Assembly: GCA_037176845.1 (NCBI GenBank) | Contig: JAYKXP010000039.1 | Location: 372,001-436,000, forward strand | DNA from: Paramarasmius palmivorus | Taxonomy: Eukaryota > Basidiomycota > Agaricomycetes > Agaricales > Marasmiaceae | Direction of reading: 5' to 3' | Length of the DNA stretch: 64,000 nt | In this document: piece by piece, positions 30,888-59,466 of the stretch | How positions within the stretch are numbered: position 1 is the first letter of the stretch | How the letters are laid out: every line of letters begins with the position of its first letter | Translations under genes and position numbers: made by a program | Notes under the pieces: model-generated | Told to the model about the DNA's origin: nothing | The model's input: only the letters and a program-made list of their open reading frames with translations | The model's database searches: none

Positions 30888-30931
30888 CTAGCGAGGGTGG
30901 GTCGGCTGTCGCCGACGTTTACGAGTTCGGA
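30888..30931 (-). other. 3' terminus of the inner Helitron
   Basis: On the minus strand: TCCGAACTCGTAA (30919-30931), hairpin GTCGGC-GACA-GCCGAC (30901-30916), 9 bp, CTAG (30888-30891), then host T. Spacing and core motif match the outer element's 3' end. Confidence 0.85.
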
Positions 30932-31021
30932 CTTTTTTTTTCTTTTTTTCGGAAGGCAGCTTATGTACTGGTGATCAAGGTTAGTAATACATGTACGTTT
31001 ATTCAGCACGATAGTACAACA

Positions 31022-32037
31022 TCAAACTGGGTATATCTTGGACTGGAAAAGACGATTGCCACGCAGGAAGAATCGGTCGTGGTGATCCCTGTCTTCTACG
31101 AACACTCTTATACCTTGCCATCTGTCTTCGTCCAACTGGAGTACCGCAGAGGGGTACACGAGAACATCCCACCCTTCGTGTTGAGGTCCCACGTCTCTCG
31201 GATCGCCGTTGTTTGGCTGCACGAACACCACACGGGGATGGAAGAGCCATAAATCAAAATTCATGAGTCGGAGTGGTGAACTGTTGCTCGAAACGACCAC
31301 CGCAACGAGGTCCAGCGAGTCGGGCAGGAAGATGCAAGAAAGGTCGGACATTGCTCTGCCAGACGACCAGGAACTGGTTGTGAGCGACATTGCAACCTCT
31401 TTCAGACCATGCAAACACTGGAAGCAACGACTGCCTGCACTCTCCAAGTGCGAAGAAAGATCGATATCGACAAACAGGCGTCTCAGCGACTCCCAGTGAC
31501 GGCCGCTGGTCGGGACAGGCCTCAGATTCGGCAAGACGTAATAGTGGGGTGCGTTCAGAGACTCGAGTAAGGGGAATGCGATCGTCCCCAAGAGTGTCGC
31601 TGTTTTCGGACTGTAGATATTGGGGAGCGTGAGCGTGACGACGCTCCGTCGCACACAATCCAACAAATTAACGAGCGAGGCTTCGACTACGGGGGGCAGT
31701 ACGTTGATACTGACGGAGAGGTGTTGTATAAGGGAGGCATGTTCTGTTTCCAGCAAGCACCACGCGAGCTTCACCAAGGCAGTACTCCGATTGATGAAGA
31801 TGTCCTTGTATAGAACATGGTAGAGACTGTCGGAAACAGTCAGATGAGGACACAAGTAAAGAAGACCGAAACACACCTGGGTGTCAAGGAGGGGTGAATA
31901 AGCAGAACGAATAAAGCCCTATCATTTTGGTCCCGACAACTGTCGATGGTGACTTCCAAGATGTTTAGGTACAGCTCTGGGGGCAAAAGCACACGTCTGG
32001 CGCACAGAGGTCGAAGTGGACGAAGAGGTAGATGCAT
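31022..32037 (-). CDS. F-box-like protein (cargo)
   Basis: Exons 31877-32037 and 31022-31826 (intron of 50 bp) encode about 321 aa. The N-terminus has an F-box-like LPPELYLNILEVTI segment followed by an LLIHPSL helix and the continuing SLYHVLYKDIFI, the usual F-box layout in basidiomycetes. The rest is a Leu-rich helical region, without clear LRR repeats, typical of substrate-binding parts. F-box proteins recruit targets to SCF ubiquitin ligases. It lies right next to the element's 3' end. Confidence 0.65.
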
Positions 32038-32075
32038 TCTGACGTGTCACGTCACACATGACGACTACGGGAACA

Positions 32076-32867
32076 TCAATTTATGTAAGGCCACAGCCTC
32101 GATGTCGAATATATCTCCATATCAGACCCCGTATCATCCTCCACAACTAGCTTCAGCTTAGCAGCCATCGCTCCAATACAGCCCTCGTGTGTGCGGACGA
32201 CGTCGTACATGTTCTGTTTCGCTTCGCTGCAAAACACCGTAGCCTTGCATTCCATCGAGTCCACTATCGGTTCAATACACTTTGAAGACGTTAATTCACC
32301 CTGAGCGAAGGAGTATCTGAAAGTGAGGTGCATAGAATGGCTGCCGAGATGATCTGATAAGGAGAGCCCTCGAGTTGCACAGTCCCTCCTCATACTTTTT
32401 GCGAATTTTCTCCACAGCGCGGTATCGTGTTTGCAGAGATATCGATGGAATGCGGTAGCGAAGAAGTTGGGAGGAGCCTTACACCTTGCAGCGTGTCTTG
32501 GCCTATCGCGACGCTGGCAATCTAAGGACTGGGAGGCGGATCAGAGAACACACTCGACGCAGAGAACCTGAAGTCGCGTACGCAGTAGCCTACGAAGAGG
32601 CAGTTGGAACACATCTTCATAACAACGGGCTGGAATGGCGAAGCGCATCCATAGCACACCATAGGACATGGTCTCCTTTCACACCCTTGCAGTCTGTGAA
32701 GGACGTCGCTGTTGAAGCACGCGGCACTCTATCACAGGTCAGCAAATAACAAAAGAAGAAGGAGAATTGGCGCTCACACAGTAAAACACGGAGTGGCAGG
32801 TGGAACATGCTTTCCAGCGTAGATGTGGGAGGCTCGCTTCGCAGTTGTTGCAAGTTGAGGGACGCAT
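32076..32867 (-). CDS. MYND-type double zinc-finger protein 1 (cargo)
   Basis: Exons 32778-32867, 32582-32728 and 32076-32528 encode about 229 aa. Finger 1 is C-x2-C...W-x2-C-x2-C-x4-F-Y-C, with an intron exactly after that last Cys, completed by CFNSDVLHRLQGC. Finger 2 (CYGC...CSNC...GYC, intron, C...RH...C) repeats the plan. The C-terminal half is unknown and ends LWPYIN. It shares exon plan and length with the genes at 33112 and 35211. MYND fingers bind Pro-rich partners and often occur in chromatin proteins. Confidence 0.7.
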
Positions 32868-33111
32868 GGCCGGTGGTAAGTATCTGTCGGTGATTCCGTT
32901 ATATCGACCAGGAGAGCAGTGTGGATCACCGTCTCTATCGTAAAGGGAACGGGAAGACGGGAAACAGAAGGTACTAGCCAACGTAAGGTAAGGAAGCACT
33001 GATTGCCTTTAAGCGACCGAACGATGGCAACAGATCGACTCGACGAAAGGCGGACAGAATCCTTGCACCGACCCGATCAGATTCGACCTTTCCTTGTCCC
33101 AGTACCTCCAT

Positions 33112-57159: not shown

Positions 57160-57639
57160 GAATCTGATCTAGATGCTACTGCGGGGAACAAGAATCCTGC
57201 GATGTGAAGTGACAGCGACGTGGGAAGCAGAGATAGACAAAAACGTTGTCAGTAGGATATCAATAGACAAATCAATTGGGATTACCTGCCGAGCACACAG
57301 TATTTACGAGAAAGGGAAACGGAGAAAGAGATAAGTGGGACGCACGACTAAACGCCAAATCACGCCACAGCAAAGCAAAGTGGAAAAGAAGACTCAGCTT
57401 CTAGGGAACCTCAACAACCGAACGTGAAAAAAAGCTTGAATGGCAGTCCCAGCACTAGGGCCATCGATCGGACACCACGACAAGCAATGCACTCTACTAG
57501 CGGTTGACGAGGGACAACGTCTGTGCAATCAAATACGTAATAACCGATCGGCATCCCGAAAGAATGCCGAGGGGAGCCTCAGAGAGCGGGGAACAAATTC
57601 GACGTAGAGACAAAGAAAAGAAGAGGCAAGAATAACAAT
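57160..57639. other. Intergenic in inner element, nothing recognised
   Basis: About 480 bp with no supported frame; purine-rich in places. Confidence 0.4.
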
Positions 57640-57939
57640 ATGCCCCAAATTAAATACATAAAAAAAAAATCAAACAGGCGAAGAAAACGAGCACTCAAAA
57701 GCGACATCCCCGAAGGGGGCAGATCAAGAAGGCCGATTCATTCGACAAAAGATCTAATTCGGATCACGGCTACCATCACAGAGCCGCCAAGGAAGAAGAG
57801 ACAAGGTATTACCAGCATTACGTGCGAGAACGCCGCTCGAAATCTCGAGTCACGAGCGGGACAAAGTTCTGCGGATTTTGTAAATCACGTGACAGAAGGA
57901 CAAATACCCGACCACAAACCGACGCCGTCTTCTACGTAA
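57640..57939 (+). CDS. Small very basic open frame, doubtful
   Basis: 99 codons starting with a Lys/Arg-rich stretch (KKKSNRRRKRALK) encoded partly by a poly-A run. No family is recognised. It may be coding, but base composition alone could open this frame. Confidence 0.25.
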   Translation: MPQIKYIKKKSNRRRKRALKSDIPEGGRSRRPIHSTKDLIRITATITEPPRKKRQGITSITCENAARNLESRAGQSSADFVNHVTEGQIPDHKPTPSST

Positions 57940-58018
57940 AGCCCGTTGACAGCGACACCAATCCCAAAACGGCCCAGGCAACGCGTTAAAATGGAAGACA
58001 GAGAAAAAGTTCCACTAA

Positions 58019-59118
58019 ATGGCAGCCCGTCCTCCCTCGAAGAAAGATCGTCCTAGGCTCGTACCGGAGATCCTCTGCGAAATATTCAAGACCGCCATGC
58101 AAGACACCTCCTGGAAAGGCCGGAGCAACCTAGCGATACTAGACAAAGAGTGGCACGACGAGTACGTATTATTCACAGTAACCGTAGCTGTACCTGAACG
58201 CGACCCAGATTGCAGCCCATCCTAATGCGAGAAGTCGTGGTTAGCAAAAAGACATCCCTATTGTCGATACTCGAGAACGTACGCCGAAACTACGGGAATG
58301 CTGAGCAAGTACGAACGCTCCACATCCAGGTCGGATGCGCCCCCGCCATAGCACCCCGAACCGCGACAGGCTGTGGATCGGACGTTACTTGCGGGATACG
58401 AGTGGAGGAGCAGGGGCCATGCGGACACATATCTCAGCAGGATCGCGATAACATCCACGAGTTGCTGGGGGCGTGCTCCACCACGGTTCAGAAGATCATC
58501 ATCCACAGCAACGATACCTTCATCTTCCTCACCAACTTCATCCGGAACACCGCGTTTCCCTGCGTCACGGAGGCAGAAGTTCCAGCGGAGACAGTATGCT
58601 TCTCATACGACAACAACATACCCTTCCCAAACGTCGAAAAGCTGAAACTGTCGAGCACAGGAGGCATGTACTCTACAGAAGTCGTCTCCAACATGGACTT
58701 CCGGCGCCTTCTCAAGCTGAAGCAGGTGATGATCGGGTTCTGGAAGACCGAGGGCAGGCTAATAAGCGAAGCGATACTGCGATTGCGGGTACCCAGGAAG
58801 CTCACATCGTTTGCCATAGAGAACGAACGCGGTATGCAGCTACCAACACACATCTCCATCCTCCGTCAGTGGGTCCGAAAACCATGGCTCATCGTGCTGA
58901 TGACGCCGCTGGGAATGAACGCGGAAATGGGGAACTGGAAGTTGCATTTTCGGTACGGCGACAGCGGAGGACTACCACTAGATATTGCTCACGCCGAGGC
59001 CAGAGGGATGATAATGATGAATAACAGAGCAGAGGACGAGTGGGAAAGTATGGCAGGGCATGTATTTAAAAGACGCGAACTTGCGCGTACACACGGATTG
59101 TACGTCGAAATGATATGA
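58019..59118 (+). CDS. F-box-like protein 2 (cargo)
   Basis: Exons 58019-58165 and 58216-59118 give 349 aa. The N-terminus shows RLVPEILCEIFKTA followed by a LAILDKEWHDEY helix, an F-box-like pattern. The splice then continues PILMREVVVSK, the usual hydrophobic link. The rest lacks clear LRRs but has beta-helix-like segments (VEKLKLSSTGG). It sits next to the 5' end of the element, mirroring the F-box-like gene at the 3' end; the two proteins are not obviously close relatives. Confidence 0.55.
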
Positions 59119-59466
59119 TGTGAACTACCTAGCGCATAATGTCACAGAGTAAACGTTTTCCATCATGTAGTAAGCAGAAAGTTAGGGTGAACACAACGAA
59201 AATGTGAACAACCTCAACAGCAACGGAAAGTACAAGGGAAGGTACTCGGTGAGAGAAAAAATAAAATAAAAGAGGCAGACGACAAAGACGACAAACAGAA
59301 AATGAGTAATGGAGATGAATGACGCGAAGCGAATGACGAGAATTACCAACGTGGGAAAATGGGAATGTTATTCAACCAATCAGATCGCTCAAAACTAGCA
59401 CAGCCTCAAAAATTCGAAAGTGGGCTCACCGATAAAGAACGAATTCGGATAACTCCGAACTCGTAA
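59119..59466. other. 5' end region of the inner Helitron
   Basis: Non-coding. A purine-rich tract lies at 59250-59310, then the terminal sequence. On the minus strand the element begins TTACGAGTTCGGA and is followed by a CCGAATTCG relative of the same core. Confidence 0.6.
59454..59466 (-). other. 5' terminus of the inner Helitron (13-bp inverted repeat)
   Basis: TCCGAACTCGTAA on the plus strand is the exact reverse complement of 30919-30931. Here it is at the very end of the element, while its partner is 31 bp inside the other end. The next base, 59467, belongs to the outer RepHel codon for Asp. Confidence 0.85.

Follow-up and report, generated by a model that had tools for sequence, protein, structure and literature searches.

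A giant Helitron2-type element of Paramarasmius palmivorus with a recurrent gene set that is probably its own

Does a transposon that carries 11-13 genes besides its own transposase represent a single Helitron loaded with passengers, or one copy of a lineage to which these genes belong? This question is raised by a 64,000-nucleotide stretch of the Paramarasmius palmivorus genome (68.3 Mb in 393 contigs, labelled C1 onwards in our own numbering). This stretch, C39:372001-436000, is referred to as the window, and the element, called W, occupies its positions 30888..59466 with the transposase on the minus strand (28,579 bp, one TT counted in). A preliminary description had taken W for a single Helitron loaded with passengers, which did not hold, as its genes recur, with order and orientation unchanged, in dozens of related elements across the genome. 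W is very probably a member of a diverged lineage of giant (27-29 kb) Helitron2-type elements of this species, with its own constrained gene set in fixed order.

The limits of the element are exact except for an ambiguity of two bases, TT. W lies within the RepHel gene of another Helitron, also on the minus strand, whose 5′ part (59467..64000) runs off the window and whose 3′ part (30149..30887) resumes in frame. Joining the flanks without the element gives a single open frame of 1756 amino acids, which is the RepHel of this host Helitron and aligns with the element's own RepHel to within about one residue of the C terminus. Moreover, the joined 320-nt flank has full-length matches at five uninterrupted paralogous places (C65 and C29, 86%; C41 and C271, 83%; C237, 80%), and C39 itself gives two half matches overlapping by two bases, TT. 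Because the joined host frame is intact and the empty-site paralogues match in full, the junctions are those of an insertion, and the limits first proposed were borne out. Assembly joins, raised earlier as an outcome that would speak against the element, did not appear and are ruled out at W and at a second copy on C9 by host frame and empty sites. Thus, the site that W entered is a TT within a related Helitron's RepHel gene, and the insertion is precise.

On the transposase strand, the element runs from a 5′ end at 59466 to a 3′ end at 30888. The 5′ terminus (59424..59466, minus strand) starts with TTACGAGTTCGGAGTTATCCGAATTCGTTCTTTATC..., and its boundary, marked here by a slash, reads TT/ACGAGTTCGGAGTTATCC... 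or, with the preceding bases, GA/TTACGAGTTCGGAGTTATCCG. The 3′ terminus (30888..30950, minus strand) reads ...GTCGGCGACAGCCGACCCACCCTCGCTAG/TT, continuing /TTCC, and comprises a CTAG end, a hairpin of GTCGGC and GCCGAC, and a subterminal inverted copy of the 5′ end (TCCGAACTCGTAA). In all four 3′ ends viewed (W, C9, C25 and C163), a hairpin stands just before the CTRR-type end, and the terminal inverted repeats are asymmetric, with CGAGTTCGGA at the 5′ end and TCCGAACTCG in subterminal position at the 3′ end. The target, at the W and C9 insertion sites and the viewed ends, is TT and not AT.

The RepHel gene of W (36037..44253, minus strand) is an open frame of 2738 amino acids with a DUF6570 domain, an HUH-Y2 Rep, a PIF1 helicase and cysteine-protease-like motifs at its C terminus. 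Its Pfam matches are DUF6570, Helitron_like_N (PF14214, 1.7e-29) and PIF1 (PF05970, 1.4e-25); the Rep motifs read HLHLLLW and YVTDYITK, and Helraiser is among the PDB matches of the helicase part. These domains, the 3′ hairpin with its CTRR-type end and the precise insertion with its empty sites make W a Helitron on the points tested, as had been proposed. Concomitantly, asymmetric terminal inverted repeats and the TT target place it in the Helitron2 or Helentron group by design, and TT insertion is given for Helentrons (PMC5148889; papers are cited here and below from excerpts). No Pfam family of the AP-type endonuclease domain of strict Helentrons is present in the 2738-residue frame. RepHel is the sole transposition enzyme found in Pfam scans of RepHel and the passenger models (H and K left out), which also returned no Starship-type recombinase, no capsid and no viral polymerase family. 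The NNSCAYD and GDHFV motifs of the RepHel tail recall cysteine proteases, and animal Helitrons are known to carry deubiquitinase domains (PMC9741609).

A search of the same genome for ends, empty sites and further copies, as suggested in the preliminary description, was productive. The 44-bp end had been placed at the left; it is in fact the right, 5′ end (59424-59467) whose 44 bp have relatives at 98% identity, and the left, 3′ end resembles three other places (C9, C25 and C163) over about 60 bp. By end sequence, 24 other places are similar to the 5′ end, and pattern searches returned 30 5′ ends and 11 3′ ends. These matches are not chance, since both patterns read backwards gave none. The copy C9:645809-672979 (27.2 kb) is collinear with W along its length (RepHel 72% identical in nucleotides), and two uninterrupted paralogous places match its flanks once these are joined (C70, 97%; C5, 96%). 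End pairing revealed one more giant with both termini, C184:41023-68264 (27.2 kb), whose 3′ end has three mismatches; it holds RepHel at 48291, F at 52100, J at 61789, L at 65198 and M at 66473. Hence, three giants of 27-29 kb (W, C9 and C184) have both ends. C38:182304-209000 is also collinear with W, with the finger gene D on its 5′ side, and its 3′ end was not found. The collinear copies have diverged to about 65-72% nucleotide identity.

The 16.4-kb C25:27251-43613 was tried as a giant with other cargo and is not counted, because its interior, which we take to hold a KDZ-type transposase, has other genes between ends of the family, and because a 1.1-kb element with the giants' termini (C103:22612-23745) is 94-98% like both of its ends. 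Judged from these likenesses, both are apparently non-autonomous relatives. Two further 5′ ends, C81:176730 and C41:343273, have their interior and flank in common and may be alleles or a duplication, which bears on copy counts.

The gene set was followed across 94 RepHel loci, obtained from 96 Helitron_like_N rows after removal of the second fragments on C69 and C74. By identity to the Rep region of W, which is a measure of similarity and not a tree, 58 loci fall at 51-100% and 28 at 25-34%, and eight have no match. Each gene copy was counted at one place, further exons being dropped (48 places for J, 56 for L, 60 for F and at least 74 for M). At the 58 loci of the W group, F, J and L stand on the expected side and strand at 38, 36 and 38, respectively, and all three at 31. 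At the 36 distant or non-matching loci none of the three was found, and the enrichment of L beside RepHel of the W group has p = 6.7e-12. Controls on the wrong side and the wrong strand gave 3 and 3 of the 48 J places, and 4 and 3 of the 56 L places. Gene M, for which a wider stretch was searched, is also present beside at least two of the 28 distant loci, at distances exceeding 42 kb. The order and strands of F, J and L are fixed.

Moreover, the genes themselves appear to be maintained. The 13 passenger models of W (A-F and H-N), made by script, have no internal stops, and intron-bearing genes lie on both sides of RepHel, as first noted. Twelve of them have counterparts in both C9 and C38, with K found only as short stretches; gene C has paralogous MYND matches there and no direct counterpart in either copy. 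Between W and C9, ten passengers (C, D and K left out of the dN/dS comparison) have proportions of synonymous differences (pS) of 0.67-0.84 and of nonsynonymous differences (pN) of 0.14-0.39, with pN/pS of 0.19-0.51; the corresponding ratios for two parts of RepHel are 0.18-0.24. The ten compared passengers are under purifying selection, A being the least constrained. Thus, fixed order and purifying selection are shown for most genes of the set, which are not random captures.

Several observations weigh against an element-owned gene set. By the criterion used, 20 of the 58 W-group loci are without L, including the family of the host Helitron. Many gene places are off the expected RepHel position (J 12/48, L 18/56, F 22/60 and, among the matches listed, M 20/74), so that F- and M-like genes occur elsewhere too, also where no RepHel was found. 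The counts are not independent, because some loci may be alleles or duplicates. The gene models are script-made, and that of H in C9 has four stops. In addition, synonymous sites are saturated, which makes the strength of selection rough and leaves only its direction firm. By coordinates, some off-place genes fit an inverted RepHel (C15, C31, C46 and C61) or a longer spacing (C155 and C222). At C15:293872, C31:517833, C46:295569 and C61:324995, RepHel is seemingly inverted relative to neighbouring F, J or L.

The displaced F- and M-like genes favour the view that W is a Helitron with a dozen captured host genes as cargo. In accordance with it, the MYND, F-box-like and nucleotidyltransferase-like genes resemble host genes in kind, and gene C is in W and in neither C9 nor C38. 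However, a collinear set in copies so diverged, together with an F-J-L block at more than half of the related loci, is hard to reconcile with cargo, and we consider this view improbable; as a one-off event, capture is largely ruled out by the collinear diverged copies, purifying selection and the recurrence of F, J and L. Capture may have been the past source of single genes such as C or M.

The giants could also be composites, formed by nested or neighbouring insertions and read-through of 5′ ends, so that genes of several elements are united without a joint function. Two 5′ termini lie 2.5 kb apart at the C38 giant (C38:179750 and C38:182304), the spacing between J and L differs between loci, and multiple 5′ termini are reported for Fusarium Helitrons (PMC5148889). 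Against this stand the constraint on the genes and the fixed order and strands of F, J and L; the proposal, which may describe the origin of the giants and not their present state, is very unlikely to account for them.

Gene L (54638..55839, plus strand; public model VNI00_010192) encodes a product that was modelled confidently with the fold of single-stranded-DNA-binding proteins (SSBs) of the T7 gp2.5 and African swine fever virus (ASFV) CP312R type. Such a common fold alone does not demonstrate binding of single-stranded DNA (ssDNA) by L, which is a further point against our interpretation. As to the acidic C-terminal tail of this SSB type, the last ten residues of L-family proteins are net negative in 57% (n = 86). 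A PDB sequence search with L gave two weak, chance-like rows, and five proteins searched against PHROGs gave weak matches to two families without an assigned function (0.001 and 0.25). An integrated large DNA virus, or its remnant, that gained RepHel is suggested by giant-virus proteins being the best viral-library matches of L, and is scarcely credible in view of Helitron termini, TT targets, phage SSBs that match L equally well or better, and scanned models without capsid or viral polymerase.

Returning to a lineage with its own genes, its contents change with the similarity of RepHel to that of W. At identities of 59% or more (48 loci), F is found at 37, J at 32, L at 31 and M at 35; at 55-58% (five loci), F at one, J at two, L at two and M at none; and at 51-54% (five loci), F at none, J at two, L at all five and M at none (M among the matches listed). 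Because gene content tracks these similarity bins, which are not a rooted tree, it suggests that L is the oldest partner of RepHel, followed by J and then by F and the rest. A wider reading, to which we give somewhat less than even weight, is that the giants are a distinct class of rolling-circle transposon, grown stepwise round a core of RepHel and a viral-type SSB (RepHel with L first, next J, and afterwards F and about ten more genes). Together perhaps with J, the SSB would enable movement of 27-29 kb of ssDNA, and the gene set would amount to an element genome, comparable with Maverick genomes and distributed Agaricales-wide with the L family. Relatives of L are present in Moniliophthora, Marasmius, Armillaria, Pluteus and Amanita, and in Coprinopsis cinerea (P0062). 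If true, the ssDNA moved would be far longer than the 6-14 kb of reported fungal Helitrons.

By the likely mechanism of the W lineage, RepHel would nick the element at its 5′ TT end, and its helicase part would peel off one strand. Protein L, going by its predicted fold, would coat the long displaced strand, which would end at the 3′ hairpin-CTAG terminus and then be joined into a TT target. More speculatively, the JmjC-like F, the MYND and F-box-like proteins and the protease-like tail of RepHel might act on host chromatin and silencing or on protein turnover.

The composition of the strands is also peculiar. In all three giants examined (W, C9 and C38), the transposase strand is richer in T than in A with little GC skew. 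Measured at fourfold sites, RepHel has an AT skew of -0.30 in W, -0.27 in C38 and -0.33 and -0.20 in two parts of C9, with a GC skew of about zero. The opposite-strand passengers I, L, M and N of W have AT skews of -0.26 to -0.46 on the transposase strand, and in the non-coding DNA of 44254-59466 the fractions on this strand are 0.174 for A and 0.346 for T; D of W (+0.09) and L of C38 (+0.05) depart from this pattern. The skew is small in the host RepHel (-0.08) and in six open reading frames (ORFs) of the window (-0.18 to 0.09); control frames L001-L008, read on one strand and mostly short chance frames, were left out. This T-richness might reflect a strand-specific process linked to transposition.

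With regard to the other passengers, the MYND labels given earlier to B (32076..32867, minus strand), C (33233..33910, plus) and E (35211..35992, plus) are confirmed by PF01753 (2.8e-13, 4.5e-10 and 7.2e-8, respectively), and one intron of E scores badly in the C9 and C38 models. The remaining labels stay at the level of motifs and have no Pfam match: F-box-like by eye for A (31022..32037, minus) and N (58019..59118, plus), RanBP2-like by eye for D (34493..34927, plus), a small CxxC...CxxC finger, and nucleotidyltransferase-like for M (56216..57159, plus), which has a GS...DLD motif and no PDB sequence match. Small arrays of M-like genes without an adjoining detected RepHel were seen at C37:399894-421878, C16:77636-84804, C268:31700-34468 and C35:59538-62327. 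Gene F (44632..46734, minus), labelled JmjC, has only a JmjC-like HxD...H motif, with neither a Pfam nor a PDB sequence match. HxD...H is the iron-binding motif of JmjC oxygenases, and it is kept in W, C9, C38 and the Pluteus protein P0122. An AlphaFold model of F built with five sequences had a pLDDT of 46.6 and was not used. In a Pluteus cervinus protein of 1080 amino acids, F matches the C-terminal part and H (47326..49219, minus; no family label, 3′ border uncertain) matches weakly earlier (34% over 56 residues, E 9e-5), so H and F may be one gene. Gene I (49320..50268, plus) has a coiled-coil start by eye and a sub-threshold Csm1 match (E 0.11). Gene J (50606..51826, minus) is strongly conserved, has no family label and may have its N terminus upstream, towards 52.5 kb. 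Its one public protein match is VNI00_003664 of Paramarasmius palmivorus; the J and F searches, which were word-filtered and returned one protein each, were not exhaustive, since this genome alone holds about 48 J places. K (53322..54129, minus) consists of short conserved stretches and is a doubtful gene. The true count is 11-13, as H and F are possibly one gene and K is doubtful; the models of F, K and L in W have no start codon. An Rfam scan gave nothing at the gathering threshold.

The DNA of the host Helitron has about 37-40% GC, and its family has same-scoring copies at C39:435387, C65:160571, C29:213796, C180:2518 and C271:29756. No F, J or L was detected at these five loci, though their RepHel is 60-63% like that of the giants. 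To the left of W, the window also holds an inverted pair of gene-sized segments about 75-86% alike (9880-11779 and 16550-18392).

By titles and the starts of abstracts in the open literature, most subscription journals lying outside this scope, we found no description of such a giant Helitron lineage. Among known systems, the FoHeli elements of Fusarium oxysporum, which are of Helitron2 type, share asymmetric terminal inverted repeats, T-rich insertion sites and RepHel with the giants, and FoHeli3 has, upstream of RepHel and on the strand opposite to it, one additional ORF without known function, the same placement as L here, which is a likeness of position (PMC5148889). However, FoHelis are about 5-11 kb long with at most one extra ORF, compared with 27-29 kb and 11-13 passengers here (PMC5148889). 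Helitrons of the mushroom Pleurotus ostreatus, some with captured genes, reach 13.7 kb, and as described in the excerpted report these genes are not a fixed-order set common to many elements (PMC4289320). Plant Helitrons with RPA-like proteins, thought to coat the displaced strand, offer a likeness in a Helitron-borne ssDNA-binding protein (PMC4683698), which is a predicted one in the giants. Fungal DNA transposons with TET/JBP genes, Helitron1 and Helitron2 included, carry an oxygenase thought to counter silencing (PMC12730594); F, with JmjC-like motifs only, is set beside them by description. The preliminary description had likened W to Starships, the large multi-gene fungal elements whose hallmark is a tyrosine recombinase captain gene. 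The likeness stands for size and gene number and fails otherwise, since Starships combine that recombinase with variable cargo, whereas the giants combine a rolling-circle RepHel with a shared gene set, and the Pfam matches of RepHel and the scanned models of W include no Starship-type recombinase. Maize and other giant Helitrons are comparable in length, up to 39 kb in maize, but carry up to nine gene fragments (PMC6431247). Fungal Helitrons of 27-29 kb with a shared gene set contrast with the 6-14 kb reported for fungi and with the acquisition of full-length genes that a 2019 review calls exceptionally rare (PMC6431247).

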